From the NCBI GenBank assembly GCA_017887695.1, contig JAGHHM010000001.1, positions 1 through 50,556 on the forward strand: a stretch of 50,556 nt of DNA. Direction: 5' to 3'. Of the stretch, positions 16,407 through 47,110 are shown piece after piece. This DNA comes from Oscillospiraceae bacterium. Its GTDB lineage: Bacteria; Bacillota; Clostridia; Oscillospirales; Oscillospiraceae. The notes beneath the pieces were generated by a model. It was not told the origin of the DNA, did not search any database, and saw only the letters and a program-made list of their open reading frames with translations. Numbering within the stretch: position 1 is the first letter of the stretch; the number at the start of each line of letters is the position of its first letter. The translations under genes and the position numbers were made by a program.

Positions 16407-16411
16407 ATCCT

Positions 16412-16618
16412 GTGCTGAATAGGCTGCAAGTGCCCTAAGGGATCCTTTTGTCCCGGCGGGAGAATAGGGAACCGGGTGGAAATCCCGGACGGTACCGCCG
16501 CTGTAAGCGCCGCGGCCCCTCCCATTGGCGAAAGCCAGCCACCGGGGAAGCCGGGAAGGCAGGGAGACGGCATGGAGGGAACTCCCTCCACCGGCGTAAG
16601 TCAGAAGACCTGCTTGCC
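16412..16618 (+). ncRNA. Cobalamin (AdoCbl-type) riboswitch
   Basis: The conserved core elements are in order: GGGAACCGGGTGGAAATCCC (P3-L3 with the GGTGGAAATCCCGGAC-type core), GCCGCTGTAAGCGC, GAAAGCCAGCCACC (J6/3-P7 region) and the 3' box GTAAGTCAGAAGACCTGC. It lies between a strong promoter and cbiA and is followed by two terminator hairpins. Cobalamin binding would favour termination and shut off cobamide synthesis genes. Boundaries are approximate, and the 5' P1 strand (TGCTGAATAGGCTGCAAG) is placed by eye. Confidence 0.93.
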
Positions 16619-16622
16619 AGCC

Positions 16623-16662
16623 GCGCCCTCCCTGCGGGAAACAGGGACGAGGGCGCTTTTGT
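16623..16662 (+). terminator. Riboswitch-proximal terminator 1
   Basis: A GCGCCCTC / GAGGGCGC stem with an inner CCTG/CAGG pair, followed by TTTTGTT, directly after the riboswitch core. It is a likely expression platform. Confidence 0.8.
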
Positions 16663-34498: not shown

Positions 34499-34575
34499 GC
34501 GCCGTTAGCTCAGCTGGATAGAGCGTCTGGCTACGGACCAGAAGGCCGGGGGTTCGAATCCCTCACGGCGTGCCA
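34499..34575 (+). tRNA. tRNA-Arg (anticodon ACG)
   Basis: A 77-base cloverleaf: acceptor GCGCCGT/ACGGCGT (first pair G-U), D stem GCTC/GAGC, anticodon stem TCTGG/CCAGA with loop CTACGGA, T arm GGGGG-TTCGAAT-CCCTC (one G-U), discriminator G and an encoded CCA. The anticodon ACG (wobble A to inosine) reads CGN arginine codons. Its 3' half is the likely attachment site of the element that follows. Confidence 0.96.
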
Positions 34576-34660: not shown

Positions 34661-35806
34661 CTAACGCATCAGGCACTGGGTCAGCTTATCTGCCAGCCCT
34701 TTCTTGCGGGTACTGTCCAGATGGCCGTAGATATTGGCTGTGGTCTGGATATCGCTGTGGCCCATCCACTCCTGTACGTCTTTGAGACTGCATCCCTGAT
34801 TCAGCAGTAAGCTTGCGCAGCTGTGGCGCAACTCATGAAAGCGGATAGGTGGTAGATTATTTTTGCGTAGCACTTTGAGAAAATGGTGAGTTACATAGTC
34901 CGGTTCAAAGGGAGTGCCGTCCGGCCACTTGAAAATATAATCATTTTCTTGGTAGTCCCTGCCCAACAAGCGTCGGTTTTCCTCCTCCGCTGTCTTTGCG
35001 GCCAGGAAAATGCTACGGGCATCCGGCGTCAGCGGGAAACTGCGGCGGCTGCTTTGCGTCTTGGTCTTGTCCTTCTCGATACGTGTCATCATTTTACAGA
35101 CAGTATGGCGGATCAACAGGATATCATTTTTAAAGTCTACGCTGTCCCATTTCAATCCAAGCACTTCACTTCGACGCAGACCATACAGTGCAGTAATCTT
35201 GACTAATGGCAGTAGGGGGTCACCCTCCATCACGTCAAACAGATGCTGAATCTGATCAGCGTTGTAAAATGCAGCCTCAAAGCGCTCATGGCGAGGCAGT
35301 TCCACATAGTCACAGGGATTGCTTGTCAAAAGGTTCTCCTTCACCGCCTCTGCCAGCGACTGGCGGATGATATTCCGATGATGGCGCATGGTCTTTGCTG
35401 ATAATCCACCCTTTCCGTCCAGACGGCCGCTCCGGGACTTTTCATCAAAATATGCCTGTAGTGCCTTAACGGTACACCCTTGCAGCGTAAGGCCGTTTGC
35501 GTCAAAGTATGGAAGGACTTGTTTTTCCGCTGTATTGAGATAGCCCAGGTAGGTTACCGCATCCACACGCCGCTCCACGCAGGAAAGCCAGTGCCGTATA
35601 CAGTCAGCCACCAGCATGTCTGGTTGAGGAAGGGATTCTTCCTCCCTCTCCTGCACCAGCTGCTCCCGAAGCATCTGTTCTGCCTTGCGTTTATTTCCCT
35701 TTTCCGGTAAGCCGGTTGAAATCCATCGTTGTTTCCTTTTTCCATTTTCCGTGCTGTTAAGCACCATGTAAAATTTCCCGCTTTTTACTTGCAGACTTCC
35801 TGTCAT
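34661..35806 (-). CDS. int: Tyrosine site-specific integrase
   Basis: 381 residues of the phage-integrase family. The N-terminal AP2-like/SAM-like arm and core-binding domains (about 1-170) precede a catalytic domain with the full tetrad: Arg in YGLRRSEVLGLKWD (about 211), HELRHSC (His 324, Arg 327), MGHSDIQTTANIYGH (His 350 and the nucleophile Tyr 360). The start follows AAAGGAG. The stop is 86 bases from the tRNA 3' end, the usual position of int beside attL. It is transcribed toward the tRNA behind the Xis-like gene. Confidence 0.95.
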   Translation of the reverse strand: MTGSLQVKSGKFYMVLNSTENGKRKQRWISTGLPEKGNKRKAEQMLREQLVQEREEESLPQPDMLVADCIRHWLSCVERRVDAVTYLGYLNTAEKQVLPYFDANGLTLQGCTVKALQAYFDEKSRSGRLDGKGGLSAKTMRHHRNIIRQSLAEAVKENLLTSNPCDYVELPRHERFEAAFYNADQIQHLFDVMEGDPLLPLVKITALYGLRRSEVLGLKWDSVDFKNDILLIRHTVCKMMTRIEKDKTKTQSSRRSFPLTPDARSIFLAAKTAEEENRRLLGRDYQENDYIFKWPDGTPFEPDYVTHHFLKVLRKNNLPPIRFHELRHSCASLLLNQGCSLKDVQEWMGHSDIQTTANIYGHLDSTRKKGLADKLTQCLMR

Positions 35807-36843: not shown

Positions 36844-36878
36844 AAATACGCTGCCCTAAATTTCAGGGCAGCGTATTT
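36844..36878. terminator. Hairpin AAATACGCTGCCCT/AGGGCAGCGTATTT
   Basis: A 14-bp perfect stem with a 7-base loop and A/T-rich ends on both sides, so it can terminate in both directions. It sits immediately before the IS200/IS605-like element. Confidence 0.6.
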
Positions 36879-36889
36879 CATTGAGTAGG

Positions 36890-37132
36890 GAAACCACCGG
36901 CTCTGCCGGTGGAGGTGCCCCGGGAAAAAGCTTTTGCTTTAAGCGTCGAGCGAAGCGAGCTGCTAACAGCAAGCTATCAGGGATGAAAGGCCACCGTAAG
37001 AACAGCGATTGCCCGTTTACGGGCTGTGGGGCAAGTGATGCGAGCAAAATAAAATCCAGTGCGTCTTGAGACGCATGCCGGTAATAGGCCCTTATAGGAC
37101 CAACTCAAGCCACCGGCTTAGCCGGTGGTTAT
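36890..37132. mobile_element. Non-autonomous IS200/IS605-like element with structured interior
   Basis: Two near-identical hairpins, CCACCGGC-tct-GCCGGTGG (36894-36912) and CCACCGGC-tta-GCCGGTGG (37110-37128), are in the same orientation 216 bases apart. Subterminal imperfect palindromes of this kind at both ends are the recognition sites of the single-strand transposase TnpA of IS200/IS605. There is no tnpA or tnpB. The interior is rich in short stems (TTGCCCG...CGGGC, GTGCGTC-ttg-AGACGCAT) and resembles the 3' region of tnpB/iscB elements that encodes guide (omega) RNA. Exact ends are uncertain. Confidence 0.5.
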
Positions 37133-37436
37133 GACTATATTCGCAGCCACATATTTTTCACAAAAATAAAGCTGTCCCTTTTCTCTTTAAATTAAACATA
37201 TAGATAAATGGATGCTATGCCATAATCTTTCTTCATGCAGATCTGTCGCTTCTTTTTTCATCGGGTCATCGATACATTATTGCAAAACATATGTCATGGT
37301 ATTCATCTAAAATTGACCGACATGAGAGGAGGATATGTCAACTTATTTTATAGCGAACAAGCTTGTTACGCATTATTACCTGAGTTTGCAAAGTCCATGA
37401 AGAAATCAAAATACAACAAGAAATCGTGAGGGAAAT

Positions 37437-40400
37437 ATGAAGAAGAGAGATAGAATCACAAGTTTCCTGCTCGTATTTATTCTGACTATTCAACTTATTC
37501 CGGCTCAAGCGCTTGCTTTTTCTACCAATTTTGCCACCTCATTCACTGACTATGGCCCATATGAATTTAGTATTCCCAGTGAAGAAGAAAGCCAGTATCA
37601 AAATTCTACAGATCGCTATTATGACCTCGTTTATACACCTGAAGGTGATCTGAGTACTGATTTCCCAGAAACTGATTCTGGAGATAACACATATAATTCT
37701 GAGCTAAAAGATCCAACATCTCTAGTTCCAACGGAAGCAGATCATCATTTCATAGAAATAGTAAAGGTATATTCCAGTTTTCTGGAGCTGACCCCTTCCG
37801 ATCAAGAATTTTTATGCAGCTACACTGGCATAGCATCTGAAATGCTTGCTACGTTATCAGTGTCAGGTGTATCCATCTCTGACGCATTAGGTTACGCATC
37901 ACTTTCGTTATCTATTGAACTTCCTATAGAAGAAATTATTGCCGTATCACCAACACTGGATGAGATTAATTCTATAGCAATTCAAGCTAAACTCTATAAT
38001 TCTTATTTGGATTCAGAAATTTCGGAGCCAACTGTAGATTTAGAGTTGAAAAAATTCCTGCTTCAGGGCTATTCTTTTGAACAGATTAATAATGCATTTA
38101 CGATTAATCAAAAATACAATATTGCTATCAGTGACTTATTGGAAGGTATCTTGCAGGGCGAATCTATGCCTGTGGGCAACAACATACTGACGGAAAATGA
38201 ATTATCAGAACTGTCTGACTTAGCTCAGGAAGCTGGGATTTCTGAATCTGCAATTATAAATTACACGGATCAGAATCAGGAGCAATATTCTGACATAAAA
38301 TCCACCTTGCAGTCTATCAATACATCTCCCGTTGCTGCTGGTTATGAAAATGAAGCCAGCGACAGCTGGTCTTCACAATCTGACAGCTCAATTGGCTCTG
38401 CAAGTCCTAATGCCACTGATGATGTCGTCGTTACCCCAATGGAAACGCAGTACTTAGGCGCCCCCTATACCTATAGCGCTAGCGACAACGAAAAAGTCTC
38501 TCTAAATACCGGCGCTCTGATTGAAGAAGCGATTGATTACATTCTTCCCGGCATAAATGGTTTGGATCTCGTTATTGGAAGACGATATAATTCTCAGGAA
38601 GCAAATAACGTTACACCAGTCTCCATGTATGGCTCTCTCCCAGTTTACCAATACTATGTCAACTATGGGGCTGAGGCATCTTACTATGTTCCCGGCATTG
38701 CTTCTGGGGCTTGGGATTATTATGATGAGCATTATGTTGCCGGCCCATTTGCCACATTAATGGATGCGCAAAATTTCTGCGCAACACTGCCTTCAGGGCG
38801 GCGTGTAATACCCAATTTTGAAGATGGAGCAGATCTGATATTTGATTACTATGCAAATATCGTCCCTGTTCTCATCGGATACAACTATATTACAACCTCT
38901 GGTACCCAGCCAAACAATTACTTAAAGAGCATGTATGGCCTTGGCAATGGATGGAGCTTCATGTTCTCTTCTATTGAGATGACTGGCAGCAGTCCGCTGC
39001 TACATCTCTCTGACGGCAGAACCTACGAAATTGCCTTCGGATCAACTATTTCTAATTTGAAGGACTATCTTCTGTCTGACCTCCGAATCGTACAAGAACC
39101 TAATGCTTATTTTAATGGACAAGAATATTCTTTATATACCCTTTACTATGCCGATGGTACTCGAGAGTATTTTTCCGGCTTTGGAAAACTGCTTGCTAAA
39201 GCGGACCGCTACAACAATACAATTAAATTCAGCCACAGCATACTTAACGGTTTTCCTTATATCACAATAACTGATACATTGAATAGGGTTACTACAATCT
39301 CTGGTTCTCCCATTCTTAATGGTCATATCATGACAGTAACCCTACCAGATTCCAGAACGATGACTTACACAGTTAATTATCTGGGGAACAGTTGTGATCT
39401 GCTGGGTATTCATACAAACACCAGCAACCAAAATACATACTATTCATACTCTGTCAACACTGCAGGCTTTGATGCAAACAGCAAAGGTATTTCTGCAGCA
39501 TCCTACCAATTTGCTAATTTGACGGCTATCCAACATCCTACCGGAGCACTAACCCAATTCAACTATTCTTCCAAAGTACGTAATCTCGGAGTCAGTGGCG
39601 CAACTCAAGTATTTGTCCTATCTAACCGTTTCGACCGTACAATTACCGATAGTTCTCCGAAAAATGTCACTAATTATTCGTACTTCTCTGATTGTTCCGG
39701 GTACCCCAACTATACGGATGGAAACAACTTACCCACAATATTCACATACAGCACAACGGTAATAAATCCTAGCACGGGTCTTGCCGAAGGAACCACATTT
39801 AACTACAAACACCGTCCTATTGCCATTTCCTACAGTAATATATCATCCAATGCACTTCTACGGCAAACCGTCTATAATTATGATATAGCTACATGGCTGC
39901 CAACATCTTGTTACGATAATTGGTATGGCACAAACCCACAACAGCCACCGTATCAAATTATTACCAGCATGACATACGATCAGTATGGAAATGTGACCGC
40001 TGAATGGTCGCCTTTGGCGGAAGGCTCTACGATTGACACAGAGTACAAAACAACTTATACATACGGTGGTCCATATCAGCTTCTATTATCAAAAACGTAT
40101 AAAACAAATCTCAACACTACCGTAGAAGAGAGGAATACCCTCACTGAAGATGGTCGATCTATTGCGCGTACAGAAGTATATGAAAACAATGTGCTTAAAA
40201 GCCGCACAGACTTTACCTATGATAGTTCTGGTAATGTAACAAGCCAGAGAAATTATAAGGACGGTTTTACCGACTTTTATTTGACTGAGTACACCTACGA
40301 GAGCGGGTATCTATCCTCGGAGTCACGTTATGATGTACTTGATCCTGATGGCGCTGCCGCGCTTCCCACTCCTGGACAGGCAGCTGGAGTAATTCGCCGA

Positions 40401-43400
40401 ACATATACTTATGACCGTATGGGTAGATTGTTCCAGTCAACTGATGCCAACGGCGGAACTACTACATATTACTACGATAACCTGGATAATGTCTCTTTAA
40501 TCCTTAATCCTGACAACACATCCATATCCTATACTCGTGATTACTTCGCAAACACTGTAACTGTCCGTGATGAAGATGGCGCGAATATCAAGTACACGTA
40601 TACACCGTTAGGTCTGGAATATCAGACCATCGATGTGCAGAGTGGAGCTATATTGTCCCAGAACAACTATGACAGTGCATCCCGCCTGATTCAAAAATTT
40701 GACTACACCTATGGATCATCAGCACTGTATTCCTACGATGTTTGGGGAAGGTGCCTTAGCGAAAGTATTGGTACATTAAACGGGGAAATCCTATCTCAAA
40801 AACTGTACAACTACACAGATGCACCCGCAGACCAACTTTACCAGATAAAAACCGAGACAATCCTCGGTGATACTATGGCACCTTCTATCATCACTAACTA
40901 TTACACCAACAAAATTGGCCATCCTGTGAAGACAGGGAAAATGCTCAATGGTACTGAGTATTTTGAAAACTACACCACCGATTATAGGGGTAATGTAGTT
41001 ATCACTCAATCTGCACAGGCAGCAGCTCAAGGCTTAGGTTTTAGTGAAAAGAATGAATATGACTATGCAGGCCGCGTAATAAAAACATACAATGCGGACA
41101 ACCAGAGCACCTCTAATACCTACAATGCTTTGGGGCAGCTTATCCAATCAACAGATTACTCAGGGACCCCAACCATCTATTCTTATGATGCCCTGGGCCG
41201 GATGCTGACACAGACACTCAAGATAGATGCCTCCAATAGTGCGGTAACTAAATACTACTATGATGCAGCAGGAAACATTATCCGTCAACTGACACCTAGC
41301 CAAAGTCTGGGATCTGGTGCAATATGGAATAGGATCGATTACACTTACGATTCGCGAAACAGGCTAGAAACAGCGTCCCTCTACGATGGTAATTCTATTG
41401 CCACCGCTTCTCGCTATACTTATAGTGGCACCGGCAATCCTTTGACCATGACCACAGGGCTCTCCTCCCCCACTGCCTCCGGTGGCAGCACCACAACCTA
41501 TACCTATGATCATTTTGGAAATGTCCTATCGGAAACCGATGCCACTGGTGCAGCCGAAACATATAGCTATAGCATAACTGGATGCCTAATCAGCAAAACC
41601 AATCGAAATGGAATAACAGAACGTTATTCGTACGATGCATTAGGACGCCTAATCGGTTATAACACAGGTGTCGAAATCTTTGCAAACATCTATTCCAAAA
41701 CTGGCGCTCTGATTGGCGAGCTTTCAGGAAAAATCCTCTCCACCACTATTCCCGTTCTGCAGCGTACCGAGTACAGCTATGATTCATGGGGACGTTTGGC
41801 GCAAGTTGTTTATAGTGATTTTGGAGCAGAAGGAACTACTAATGTCACAGCAGCCACTCCTCAAATCTCCTACACCACACAGTATACCCACGATCTGGCC
41901 GGAAATCGTACAAACATGACTGTACAGATGGGAGATGTGCAGGTCCAGAACGTTACCTACACTTACGACACACTCAATCGGCTCTCCACTGTAACCGAGG
42001 ACGGTGCACTCAAAGCTACCTATACATACGATACCAACGGCAACCGGGCCAGCTTGACCTACGCTAACGGTGTTTCTGAGACATATAGCTACAACCTGGC
42101 CAATTGGGTCACCGGCCTCACCAACAAATTAGGGAGCACTACGCTTTCCTCTTATAGTTACACTTATTTCGCCAGTGGAAACCAGAAAACCAAGACTGAT
42201 CATACCGGTAAAACCACCACTTACACCTATGATGGGCTTGGCCGCCTGACTGCTGAAAGTAGCGGAGAGCTCTCCGTATCCTATGTATATGATGCAAACA
42301 GTAACCGTACACAAATGTCGGTAAGTGGTCCTGAGAGCAGCATTATTGCGTACTCCTATGATGCAGCTAACCGGTTGGTCAGCGAAACAACGACCCGTGA
42401 CGATGCCATTGTAAAGTCCATTTCTTATTCCTATGACGACAACGGCAATCTACTGTCCAAGGCAACAACTGGAGCAGACAATATTGTCAACACGGATACT
42501 TTCCAGTATAATACGATTGACCAGTTGATTTCCCACACGTCGGACAGTGTTACCACCTCCTACACCTATAATGCGCAGGGCATCCGAACCAGCAAAACTA
42601 CCGGCGCTCTTACCAGTTACTATGTTCTGGACGAGGAAAATGTGGTAGGCGAGGTCCAAAATGGAGCTGTTACCGCCAGCTATCTGCGGGGCGTCAACCC
42701 GATCCTCATGGATATTGCCGGTTCTGAAAGCTACTATCTCTACAACGCTCATAGCGATGTGGTGCAGCTTACCAGCGCCGCAGGTGCTGTCAGCCGTTCC
42801 TACGACTACGATGCCTTCGGCAATGAACTGGATCCCGACACCGCAGATATCAACCCCTTCCGCTACTGCGGCGAATACCGAGATACTGAATCCGGCGCCT
42901 ACTATCTCCGGGCCAGGTATTATGATCCCAGCATTGGACGCTTTACCCAGGAAGATACGTATTGGAACATCGCCAATATGATCTACGGAACCAGCCCTCA
43001 AAAAATCAACCAGCAAAAGGATTATCTTGGCCTTACAAATTATACCTATGCACCCGAGATATCCGCTATCCTACAAAGTGGTAATCTTTATGTCTATGCT
43101 ATCAATAACCCAGTGTTATACCACGACACCTCCGGTAATATAGTTCAATTTGTTATTTTAGGTACCGCCATATCAGCAGAGTCTATTATTGCCGCCGCAG
43201 GTGCAGCAGCACTGAGTGGTATATTAATTTTTTCCGACTTTCGCGACAAACTAGCCAATCTACTTAAGTATGCATATGATTCTACCGAAGATGCCATAGA
43301 AGACATACTTGCCGCATTTTCTAATATTGCTGCTGCATCACCCACGCCCGACCCTAACGGCAACGATAACGACAGATCATCAGATACCAAAAGCATAAAA

Positions 43401-43598
43401 AAAATCAAAAGTAACAAAGAAGCTAATAAAATCGCCAAACAATTTGGCTATGATAATGCTGAGCAGCTAAAGCAAGATTATGTAAACAGAAGTGGATCTC
43501 ACTTTAACATGTTTTATAATACAAAAACTGGAGAAGTTATCTTGCAGTCAATAGGAAATAGCAAATTAAATATTCCTACAGGTCTGTTTTTATGGTAG
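37437..43598 (+). CDS. Secreted RHS/YD-repeat polymorphic toxin (WapA-like)
   Basis: 2,053 residues. A Sec signal peptide is clear (MKKRDRITSFLLVFILTIQLIPAQALAF). Residues about 30-330 are unique. A conserved RHS entry segment follows (YTYSASDNEKVSLNTGALIEEAIDY, then LVIGRRYNSQE), then some 1,300 residues of YD repeats such as YTYDRMGRL, YSYDALGRL and YTYDGLGRL, forming a beta cocoon. The RHS-associated core is at about 1806-1843 (NPFRYCGEYRD...YYLRARYYDPSIGRFTQED) and ends NPVLYHDTSGN near 1893. The roughly 160-residue variable C-terminus has a hydrophobic stretch (FVILGTAISAESIIAAAGAA) and a final ~70-residue domain (KSIKKIKSNKEANKIAKQFGY ... TGEVILQS ... IPTG) that looks like a small nuclease-type toxin; its family is not certain. 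RBS GAGGGAAAT. The 37129-37436 gap holds nothing I can support. Confidence 0.93.
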   Translation: MKKRDRITSFLLVFILTIQLIPAQALAFSTNFATSFTDYGPYEFSIPSEEESQYQNSTDRYYDLVYTPEGDLSTDFPETDSGDNTYNSELKDPTSLVPTEADHHFIEIVKVYSSFLELTPSDQEFLCSYTGIASEMLATLSVSGVSISDALGYASLSLSIELPIEEIIAVSPTLDEINSIAIQAKLYNSYLDSEISEPTVDLELKKFLLQGYSFEQINNAFTINQKYNIAISDLLEGILQGESMPVGNNILTENELSELSDLAQEAGISESAIINYTDQNQEQYSDIKSTLQSINTSPVAAGYENEASDSWSSQSDSSIGSASPNATDDVVVTPMETQYLGAPYTYSASDNEKVSLNTGALIEEAIDYILPGINGLDLVIGRRYNSQEANNVTPVSMYGSLPVYQYYVNYGAEASYYVPGIASGAWDYYDEHYVAGPFATLMDAQNFCATLPSGRRVIPNFEDGADLIFDYYANIVPVLIGYNYITTSGTQPNNYLKSMYGLGNGWSFMFSSIEMTGSSPLLHLSDGRTYEIAFGSTISNLKDYLLSDLRIVQEPNAYFNGQEYSLYTLYYADGTREYFSGFGKLLAKADRYNNTIKFSHSILNGFPYITITDTLNRVTTISGSPILNGHIMTVTLPDSRTMTYTVNYLGNSCDLLGIHTNTSNQNTYYSYSVNTAGFDANSKGISAASYQFANLTAIQHPTGALTQFNYSSKVRNLGVSGATQVFVLSNRFDRTITDSSPKNVTNYSYFSDCSGYPNYTDGNNLPTIFTYSTTVINPSTGLAEGTTFNYKHRPIAISYSNISSNALLRQTVYNYDIATWLPTSCYDNWYGTNPQQPPYQIITSMTYDQYGNVTAEWSPLAEGSTIDTEYKTTYTYGGPYQLLLSKTYKTNLNTTVEERNTLTEDGRSIARTEVYENNVLKSRTDFTYDSSGNVTSQRNYKDGFTDFYLTEYTYESGYLSSESRYDVLDPDGAAALPTPGQAAGVIRRTYTYDRMGRLFQSTDANGGTTTYYYDNLDNVSLILNPDNTSISYTRDYFANTVTVRDEDGANIKYTYTPLGLEYQTIDVQSGAILSQNNYDSASRLIQKFDYTYGSSALYSYDVWGRCLSESIGTLNGEILSQKLYNYTDAPADQLYQIKTETILGDTMAPSIITNYYTNKIGHPVKTGKMLNGTEYFENYTTDYRGNVVITQSAQAAAQGLGFSEKNEYDYAGRVIKTYNADNQSTSNTYNALGQLIQSTDYSGTPTIYSYDALGRMLTQTLKIDASNSAVTKYYYDAAGNIIRQLTPSQSLGSGAIWNRIDYTYDSRNRLETASLYDGNSIATASRYTYSGTGNPLTMTTGLSSPTASGGSTTTYTYDHFGNVLSETDATGAAETYSYSITGCLISKTNRNGITERYSYDALGRLIGYNTGVEIFANIYSKTGALIGELSGKILSTTIPVLQRTEYSYDSWGRLAQVVYSDFGAEGTTNVTAATPQISYTTQYTHDLAGNRTNMTVQMGDVQVQNVTYTYDTLNRLSTVTEDGALKATYTYDTNGNRASLTYANGVSETYSYNLANWVTGLTNKLGSTTLSSYSYTYFASGNQKTKTDHTGKTTTYTYDGLGRLTAESSGELSVSYVYDANSNRTQMSVSGPESSIIAYSYDAANRLVSETTTRDDAIVKSISYSYDDNGNLLSKATTGADNIVNTDTFQYNTIDQLISHTSDSVTTSYTYNAQGIRTSKTTGALTSYYVLDEENVVGEVQNGAVTASYLRGVNPILMDIAGSESYYLYNAHSDVVQLTSAAGAVSRSYDYDAFGNELDPDTADINPFRYCGEYRDTESGAYYLRARYYDPSIGRFTQEDTYWNIANMIYGTSPQKINQQKDYLGLTNYTYAPEISAILQSGNLYVYAINNPVLYHDTSGNIVQFVILGTAISAESIIAAAGAAALSGILIFSDFRDKLANLLKYAYDSTEDAIEDILAAFSNIAAASPTPDPNGNDNDRSSDTKSIKKIKSNKEANKIAKQFGYDNAEQLKQDYVNRSGSHFNMFYNTKTGEVILQSIGNSKLNIPTGLFLW

Positions 43599-44737: not shown

Positions 44738-45616
44738 ATGCGGCGAGCAACCTCCGTAATCGCACTCTCTATGGACGAAGAGAAGTGTCATACGCTATAC
44801 AACACATATAAGCCATATTTTGTACAGGGTATTCATGCCAACAACTACGGGCAAGTTGTTCTTCCCCTCAAGCCAGATTCCTCTATATTAAATGAAGCTA
44901 TTGAAGATGCTCGTAAACTTGATTGTGGCGGAAATTATATGTTGTGCAGTCGAGCTTACTACACAAAAAAAGAACTGGAGGCTGTCCCCTTTTTTCAGTT
45001 AGACGTTGGCTTTCCTCTGGAATTGGAAGGGACAGATCCCTCAGACTATGGGACAAAATACACCGGGGGCTGCCCCGTCTGCGGACTTGGCAAGCAACTG
45101 ACCAGCGACGTGTTCGTAGATCGAAAGTTTATTCGTAAATATAGAATTGGTCAATTGCAGCCCGACTATTTTGTCTCCGAGGAGATCCGCCAGCTCATCG
45201 AAGAAGCCGGCCTCACCGGCGTCTCTTTTGAACGAGAGGTCAGGGACTACAAGGGCCGGGAGCTGCCCCATCGCTTCTATGTTATGAACATCCACCACAT
45301 CCTGCCGCCCCTCAGCCCTTCCACCTGGCTTGAGGATACAAAAAAGCGCCAAATGGTCTCCTCCTGCGGCCACGGCACCATCTACCTACGCTCAGACCTC
45401 CAGTACGAGCGTGAAAAGCTGGAGGGAGCCATGGATTTTAACCTGACTGCAGAAATCCTCAACAATGATCAGATCCCCGCTCTCGTGGTCAGTGCGAAAA
45501 CCAGGAAGGTGTTTCGTGAGCACAAGGTGGGGTGGGCCCGCTATACCCCTGTGCTGCTGACCGACGGCGTTATCGGCACCAATCCCTATCTTGATTCGCC
45601 CCCGGGCCTGGGTTGA
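44738..45616 (+). CDS. Probable immunity protein of orphan module 1
   Basis: 292 residues, no signal peptide. The N-terminal half (1-140) is specific to this copy. The C-terminal half (from YFVSEEIRQLIEEAGLTGV) is almost identical to that of the protein at 46226-47110. A CPVC pair (112, 115) and CGHG (210-213) suggest a zinc site. The segment IPALVVSAKTRKVFREHKVGWARYTPV recalls the C-terminal motif of Imm11/DUF1629-type immunity proteins, a weak resemblance. It starts after AGAGGTG, 10 bases behind the orphan toxin. An immunity role is inferred from position. Confidence 0.6.
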   Translation: MRRATSVIALSMDEEKCHTLYNTYKPYFVQGIHANNYGQVVLPLKPDSSILNEAIEDARKLDCGGNYMLCSRAYYTKKELEAVPFFQLDVGFPLELEGTDPSDYGTKYTGGCPVCGLGKQLTSDVFVDRKFIRKYRIGQLQPDYFVSEEIRQLIEEAGLTGVSFEREVRDYKGRELPHRFYVMNIHHILPPLSPSTWLEDTKKRQMVSSCGHGTIYLRSDLQYEREKLEGAMDFNLTAEILNNDQIPALVVSAKTRKVFREHKVGWARYTPVLLTDGVIGTNPYLDSPPGLG

Positions 45617-46225: not shown

Positions 46226-47110
46226 ATGCTGTGTGCAACATGTATCGTAACCGTTCCACGCTCCTTTACTAAAGAAGAACGGAAACGTCTCTACAACAAG
46301 TTTGAACCTTATTTTGTAAAAGAATTTTCAAGATATGTCACATGGGAGCATGTAATTTGTTTTCCATTTCCACCTGATTCAGATATTCTGCATACAGCAA
46401 TACAAGAGATCTACAATAGGGAGCTGTACTATCATCTCATAAGCAAAACCTATTATACAAAAAAAGAGCTGGAGACTGTTTCTTTTTTCCAGATGGGTGT
46501 AAGGAATCCTTTGGAGCTAGAAGGCGTCGATGCCTCACGCTATAATACTCAATACACAGGAGGCTGCCCAAACTGCGGAAGAGGCAAACATCTGATCGGT
46601 AACTTGTTTATTGACAGAAAGTTTATTCGAAAGTACAGGATTGGAATGCTGGAACCCAACTACTTTGTCTCCGAGGATATCCGCCAGCTCATCGAGGAAG
46701 CCGGCCTCACCGGCGTATCTTTCGAGCAGGAGGTCAGGGACTATAAGGGGCGTGAGCTGCCCCAGCCCTTTTATGTCATGAATATTCACCACACCCTGCC
46801 GCCCCTCAGTCCTTCCACCTGGCTTGAGGATACGAAAAAGCGCCAAATGGTCTCCTCCTGCGGCCACGGCACCATCTATCTGCGCTCAGACCTCCAGTAC
46901 GAGCGTGAAAAGCTGGAGGGAGCCATGGATTTTAACCTGACAGCAGAAATCCTCAACAATGACCAGATCCCCGCTCTCGTGGTCAGTGCGAAAACCAGGA
47001 AGGTGTTTCGTGAGCACAAGGTGGGGTGGGCCCTCTATACCCCTGTATTGCTGACCGACGGCGTTGTCGGCACCAATCCCTATCTTAACCCGCCCCCGGG
47101 CCTGGGTTGA
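46226..47110 (+). CDS. Probable immunity protein of orphan module 2
   Basis: 294 residues, paralogue of 44738-45616. It keeps the CPNC pair and CGHG, and from about residue 147 differs from its paralogue by only a handful of residues, while residues 1-140 are only loosely similar (both have SKTYYTKKELE/SRAYYTKKELE and FIDRKFIRKYRIG). The toxin it should pair with is a pseudogene, so it would persist as protection against kin or competitors carrying that toxin. The RBS is weak (AGCAGGG). A terminator follows. Confidence 0.6.
   Translation: MLCATCIVTVPRSFTKEERKRLYNKFEPYFVKEFSRYVTWEHVICFPFPPDSDILHTAIQEIYNRELYYHLISKTYYTKKELETVSFFQMGVRNPLELEGVDASRYNTQYTGGCPNCGRGKHLIGNLFIDRKFIRKYRIGMLEPNYFVSEDIRQLIEEAGLTGVSFEQEVRDYKGRELPQPFYVMNIHHTLPPLSPSTWLEDTKKRQMVSSCGHGTIYLRSDLQYEREKLEGAMDFNLTAEILNNDQIPALVVSAKTRKVFREHKVGWALYTPVLLTDGVVGTNPYLNPPPGLG

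Follow-up and report, generated by a model that had tools for sequence, protein, structure and literature searches.

The window analysed here, a stretch of 50,556 nucleotides from an Oscillospiraceae bacterium, carries at 36883-37136 of the (+) strand a 254-bp protein-less element that descends from an IS200 insertion sequence and lies directly behind a transcription stop signal. It is highly probable that this is a PATE-like IS200 derivative, mobilised in trans by TnpA, which lands behind terminators because these mimic its own right end. Sequence comparison established where the element comes from, its limits and its mobility, as well as the target preference and the spacing; that TnpA recognises the terminator hairpin as a right-end mimic and moves the element in trans is what we infer from them. 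The features of the element and of its target are as follows.

36849-36882, (+): target, a hairpin resembling an intrinsic terminator (GC stem 36849-36873, CGCTGCCCT/AGGGCAGCG), then TATTTCATT
after 36882, (+): insertion point, 9 nt beyond the target stem
36883-37136, (+): whole non-autonomous IS200-derived element, 254 bp, delimited by nested insertions, alignment and sister empty sites
36888-36893, (+): putative left guide GGGAAA (GL) at the 5′ base of the left hairpin, placed as in IS608 (PMC5934647)
36894-36912, (+): left perfect hairpin IPL, CCACCGGC TCT GCCGGTGG, with covariation
36925-36959, (+): conserved left interior block AAAAAGCTTTTGCTTTAAGCGTCGAGCGAAGCGAG; its start, AAAAAGCTTTAGC, is common to some IS200 left ends
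37011-37024, (+): hairpin GCCCGTTTACGGGC, a relic of GACCCGTTTACGGGT, the palindrome in which the 3′ end of IS200 tnpA encodes ..DPFTG
37061-37074, (+): covarying hairpin GCGTCTTGAGACGC (one pair occurs as GC, CG, GU and AU; both sides are altered in 12 sequences)
37087-37101, (+): hairpin GGCCCTTATAGGACC, one mismatch in the window; GGCCCTTATAGGGCC in sister copies
37104-37109, (+): putative right guide CTCAAG (GR), conserved, at the 5′ base of the right hairpin; assigned by comparison with IS608 (PMC5934647)
37110-37128, (+): right perfect hairpin IPR, CCACCGGCTTAGCCGGTGG, with AU/UA/CG covariation (columns 237-251)
37129-37136, (+): right cleavage site TTATGACT; the cut follows 37136, at 8 nt from the stem

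The preliminary description of this DNA had placed the element at 36890-37132. The position was right, and the true span proved to be a few bases wider. The limits were derived from nested insertions and from the empty sites of sister copies. The left limit (36883) follows from the nested insertions L112 and L117 together with the family alignment, and the right limit (37136) from the conserved ...TGACT end. At both nested loci the element begins immediately after the right end of another element (L117, ...GGTTTTGATT/GATTTTGGAAACC; L112, ...TCATGACT/GATTATGGAAACC; the slash marks the junction). The two perfect hairpins of the same orientation, CCACCGGCTCTGCCGGTGG at 36894-36912 and CCACCGGCTTAGCCGGTGG at 37110-37128, were present as described; they sit in 22-nt direct repeats that are 86% identical and spaced 216 nt. 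The 197 bases between the hairpins contain no transposase, as had also been stated. The terminator directly upstream was a feature absent from that description. In the putative left guide, GG at +7/+8 was found in 38 and 35 of 39 copies, and AAA at +9..+11 in 36, 39 and 38 of 39.

The window element is unique in its own genome, and matches to it were found in 32 of 199 related genomes. In some of these the match covered the full ~250 bp at 75-81% identity; in others it was confined to the right end, and the right-end matches that were inspected turned out to be parts of complete tnpA-only IS200s. A search with a pattern of the conserved interior gave 93 stretches in genome contigs, with named sources almost all in Oscillospirales, and two viral contigs besides; copies also occur on Subdoligranulum and Vescimonas plasmid records. 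Copy number reaches about a dozen per genome, with at least 10 copies in one Anaeromassilibacillus MAG, several in Angelakisella massiliensis and many in an uncultured Oscillospiraceae MAG; such copies are related elements at different sites. Aligned copies are uniform in length (235-255 nt). At L071 a second, degenerate copy directly follows the first at one terminator, so that the same site was reused, and at L033 (about 2060-2260) a copy is interrupted by an unrelated insert with inverted ends GGGCAACACCG... / ...GTTGCCCTA.

Mobility was assessed from four empty-site comparisons for the family, two of which were too diverged for base precision. A related rabbit-gut MAG (G226) holds the sites of L065 and L072 without the insert; its flanks join at the T-tract with no duplication. 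Dispersed copies and empty sites lacking a target duplication were thus obtained through sister copies. The insertion at L072 falls between a terminator-like hairpin and the ribosome-binding region of the downstream gene. By eye, this hairpin is the putative terminator of a TPP riboswitch, and the insertion may alter riboswitch control of the next gene. For the window copy, no empty site was found among 25 genomes of its genus, and its flanks were not found in 24 genus-mates. The preliminary description had proposed a genome-wide copy count and regarded a single copy with no covariance-model match as evidence against its reading. That is formally what the element's own genome gave (one copy, no covariance-model match), while other genomes hold a multi-copy family; mobility is not refuted by the single copy because the family is mobile in related genomes. 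Its suggestion of a MITE-like, non-autonomous IS200/IS605-type element held up well, given the multi-copy family, the sharp boundaries, the empty sites and the ends common with complete tnpA-only IS200s.

The alignments show that the family derives from tnpA-only IS200 elements. The autonomous relatives consist of a left hairpin, tnpA and a right hairpin, with no tnpB, and the mini-element has in common with them both ends, the hairpin from the tnpA end and the 3′-UTR stems. Its hairpin GCCCGTTTACGGGC is the IS200 palindrome, altered in the closing pair. All 19 distinct tnpA genes ending in DPFTG write these residues as the palindrome GACCCGTTTACGGGT and otherwise prefer the codons CCA, ACA and GGA; this codon usage points to a nucleotide-level constraint at the end of tnpA. 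The ends of an Angelakisella IS200 nearly match those of a second mini-element subfamily. An ancestral tnpA-only IS200 probably lost the interior between its left end and the tnpA 3′ end; the 254-bp unit left behind, in which the subterminal perfect hairpins of both ends, the guides and the right cleavage site are kept, then spread by itself as a family. A different type of short IS200 derivative (L115, L127 and L035) has kept the 5′ UTR and the start codon of tnpA ahead of the GCCCGTTTACGGGC hairpin. At a number of IS200 loci (L013, L021, L036, L133, L154, L157, L166 and others), about 10-15 nt of the tnpA 5′ UTR, located roughly 22-38 nt before the start, are perfectly complementary to the 3′ UTR. 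The complementary sequence differs between IS200s (e.g., GGTTTGCCGACC and TTTGCCAACCGCA), and long-range UTR-UTR pairing is possible. On a Vescimonas fastidiosa plasmid, the IS200 copy L036 lies near an erm(B) gene.

The element is too short for a transposase, has no conserved ORF and carries subterminal palindromes related to IS200/IS605, as do PATEs and non-autonomous IS200s; its TnpA is presumably supplied in trans. A TnpA above the family cut-off was detected in 20 of 28 mini-element-bearing genomes and was absent above that cut-off in the other 8. The window's own genome, a MAG of 92.9% completeness, gave no match to the TnpA model, and therefore the window copy appears to be stranded there. 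Given these negative results, no cognate TnpA can be named for the window's subfamily.

The structured interior noted in the preliminary description is real. The element strand folds at -98.7 kcal/mol as compared with -82.1 (sd 5.0) for shuffled sequences (z -3.3; 0 of 200 shuffles as low); part of this excess is pairing between the two ends of the element, and the individual stems are backed by covariation in related copies. RNAalifold on 33 copies gave 43 pairs, 13 of them with changes on both sides; the latter belong to the two end hairpins, to GCGTCTT-AGACGC and to other stems. Nearly all copies were gathered by a pattern over GCCCGTTTACGGGC, so the variation in that hairpin is underestimated. 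A long-range GCATC/GATGC pairing was checked by eye, found broken in several copies and is not claimed. The interior is truly conserved and structured, and corresponds to the tnpA 3′ end plus the 3′ UTR. Folded RNA and folded single-stranded DNA are indistinguishable from these alignments.

The same interior could be read as a stand-alone guide RNA, of the omegaRNA or HEARO-like type, working with a TnpB or IscB encoded elsewhere; the preliminary description had offered a relic of this kind as its other option. Its conservation, the covarying stems, the nucleotide-level constraint on the tnpA-end hairpin and its location between the tnpA 3′ end and the right end, which is the place of omegaRNA in tnpB elements, would suit such a function. 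We nevertheless consider it very improbable. Rfam returned no family for the element at gathering or permissive thresholds, and the permissive scan listed neither HEARO nor an omegaRNA family; a search for TnpB in the window's genome gave no match, and the autonomous relatives examined encode TnpA only. An IscB-type search of that genome was empty, but so was its control. Rfam likewise gave no intron match to the element that would make it an IStron, a group I intron combined with an IS.

Alternatively, the interior may be a functional RNA, a regulatory sRNA or a 3′-UTR element, which serves host or transposon regulation independently of transposition. The conservation of the interior exceeds what ends-only mobility needs, the stem changes are GU-compatible, and a regulatory sRNA arises from the Salmonella IS200 tnpA RNA, according to PMC12594629. 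On the other side, the middle third of the interior is variable, and the conserved stems may equally serve as folded single-stranded DNA in transposition; we regard this reading as unlikely. That the element encodes a small peptide (27 aa in the window version, MKGHRKNSDCPFTGCGASDASKIKSSAS) is hardly credible. Many copies still show, in frame, what is left of the tnpA C-terminus (PFTG), but only 29 of 60 have any start codon in that frame and frameshifts vary the lengths, and the peptide was rejected.

The target of the mini-elements was examined in the flanks of full copies. A site was called terminator-like when a hairpin of -8 kcal/mol or better was followed by at least 4 T in 7. A hairpin with a T-run resembling an intrinsic terminator was present in 49 of 56 left flanks, as compared with 4 of 55 right flanks, 2 of 54 positions 300 nt upstream and 8 of 145 random positions (p = 1e-30 for left flanks against random positions). 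In the 39 copies of subfamily I, the cut lies at a median of 8 nt past the last GC pair of the stem (IQR 7-9), and the target consensus is a stem followed by TTTT[RT]TT/G (slash, cut), with T at -1 in 38 of 39. The element's own right end has the same layout: a stem, then TTATGACT and the cut, likewise 8 nt. These comparisons show a preference of the mini-elements for terminator-like sites and for a narrow stem spacing, as far as can be judged from sequence.

Such a pattern could also arise by survival, if insertions land anywhere T-rich and only the harmless ones, behind terminators, outlive selection. Insertions do the least harm at intergenic 3′ sites, and the target PWM is indeed T-rich. 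However, the spacing from the stem is narrow, the right flanks and the positions 300 nt upstream show no enrichment, and a hairpin is present at 36 of 39 insertion sites but, on the same contigs, at only 61 of the 246 remaining T-motif sites (p = 3e-16). T-runs alone were rejected as the target rule on this last comparison. Moreover, the nested insertions at L112, L117, L138 and L157 lie right behind the right-end hairpin of another element, which is not a terminator, and fit right-end mimicry. Survival is an improbable explanation of the pattern.

The same rule was found in autonomous IS200s. A terminator-like hairpin lies upstream of 26 of 27 tnpA-bearing IS200s; the control gave 52 of 150 in 165-nt windows, which is a high background (p = 6e-10). 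IS200s on a Ruminococcus albus plasmid and in two lambda-like phages sit behind terminator-like hairpins, and such a hairpin was seen by eye upstream of those on a Tetragenococcus plasmid and in Lactobacillus phage LR2. In the case of a Pseudodesulfovibrio IS200 copy, inspection by eye revealed no terminator-like hairpin. In E. coli, with 10,608 IS200C places in all, the 12 distinct chromosomal sites scored were all terminator-like, as a raw count, with stems ending 6-9 nt before the element; a thirteenth site agrees by eye. These sites lie after eno, creD, fabF, guaA, yggN, ompX, rnb, dgcZ, plaP, a tRNA-Thr and others. The joined flanks of the lambda-like phage IS200 match uninserted phages at 100% over 300 nt. 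In E. coli, the joined flanks of IS200C are 100% identical to uninserted E. coli at guaA and 99.5% identical, with one base of difference in length, at eno. That such sites are polymorphic and exactly excised, in E. coli as in lambda-like phages, points to movement of IS200. As its relatives and the IS200s examined nearly always sit behind a stop-signal hairpin, the data suggest that IS200s from gut Oscillospirales to E. coli use the terminator hairpin to choose their landing site.

In the mechanism that we propose for the mini-element, a Y1 HUH TnpA acting in trans would excise it as single-stranded DNA, and reinsertion would occur without target duplication, 3′ of a T-rich site (about TTTT-R-TT, cut after the last T), ~8 nt downstream of a hairpin that in practice is an intrinsic transcription terminator. 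The terminator hairpin and T-tract would imitate the transposon right end (hairpin, about 8 nt, cut after TTWTGAYT); TnpA would take the mimic as a target, and the left guide would pair with the T-rich cleavage site. It is known that TnpA acts on single-stranded DNA and that the cleavage sites base-pair with guides located 5′ of each hairpin (PMC5934647, PMC8266576). The palindromes are perfect in the IS200 subgroup and irregular in IS608 and ISDra2 (PMC8266576). As a tentative extension, to which we give somewhat less than even confidence, IS200-group TnpAs may read terminator structure as a right-end mimic across Bacillota and Proteobacteria, with the mini-element interior being additionally a functional folded RNA or ssDNA.

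As an object, the mini-element is an IS200-derived PATE-like element, which is a known kind. The closest systems are the PATEs of Haloquadratum (PMC3119063) and a PATE-like element in Halanaerobium (PMC7290912). Like the window element, these are short, lack a transposase and terminal inverted repeats, bear near-end palindromes related to IS605-type elements and make no target duplication; some arose by deletion of a core. Unlike them, the mini-element occurs in Oscillospirales, has a tnpA-only IS200 origin and a conserved covarying interior, and lies behind intrinsic terminators. IS200 itself (E. coli IS200C and the tnpA-only IS200s of Oscillospirales) has the same ends, the same layout of guide, hairpin and cleavage site, the tnpA 3′ hairpin and the terminator target; the mini-element differs in being without tnpA. 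IS608 and ISDra2 also have an HUH TnpA, hairpin ends, guide-cleavage pairing and insertion 3′ of TTAC or TTGAT, but their palindromes are imperfect, tnpB is present and no target hairpin is reported (PMC5934647). In the TnpAREP/REP system, too, a Y1 HUH protein acts on palindromic elements that are not autonomous, but each REP is one hairpin, REPs lie in extragenic arrays and their transposase is domesticated (PMC8266576).

The precedent for terminator targeting is that of group IIC introns, which insert a short distance downstream of intrinsic terminators with recognition of the target stem-loop (Robart et al. 2007, as cited in PMC3240598). They differ in being retroelements with a ribozyme and a reverse transcriptase, whereas IS200 is a single-strand DNA transposase system. 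For IS200, no report of terminator targeting was found in the open-access literature; a subscription journal or the ISfinder notes may nonetheless contain an earlier one. If true, group IIC introns would no longer be the only invention of terminator targeting: as a second case, a small single-strand transposase would have arrived at it independently, by reading structure. IS200 is described as widespread yet apparently immobile (PMC12594629), and landing behind terminators would explain how it could move without gene knock-outs. Such insertions can separate a terminator or a riboswitch from the next gene, which would be relevant to annotation, and terminator-directed insertion would be a lead for harmless genome-insertion tools.

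In the window, the surroundings of the mini-element comprise a tRNA (34499-34572), a phage-type integrase (34661-35806, (-) strand), the element itself and a gene for a 2053-aa RHS-repeat protein (37437-43598), and the segment 34499-43598 has the look of a mobile island. Beyond the RHS gene, in the downstream direction, the ORFs 44738-45616 and 46226-47110 are nearly equal in length (292 and 294 aa); both have an antisense ORF of 110 aa at a similar offset, and they probably represent a duplicated gene. A cobalamin riboswitch (Rfam RF00174, 83.9 bits) is located at 16411-16631 (+).
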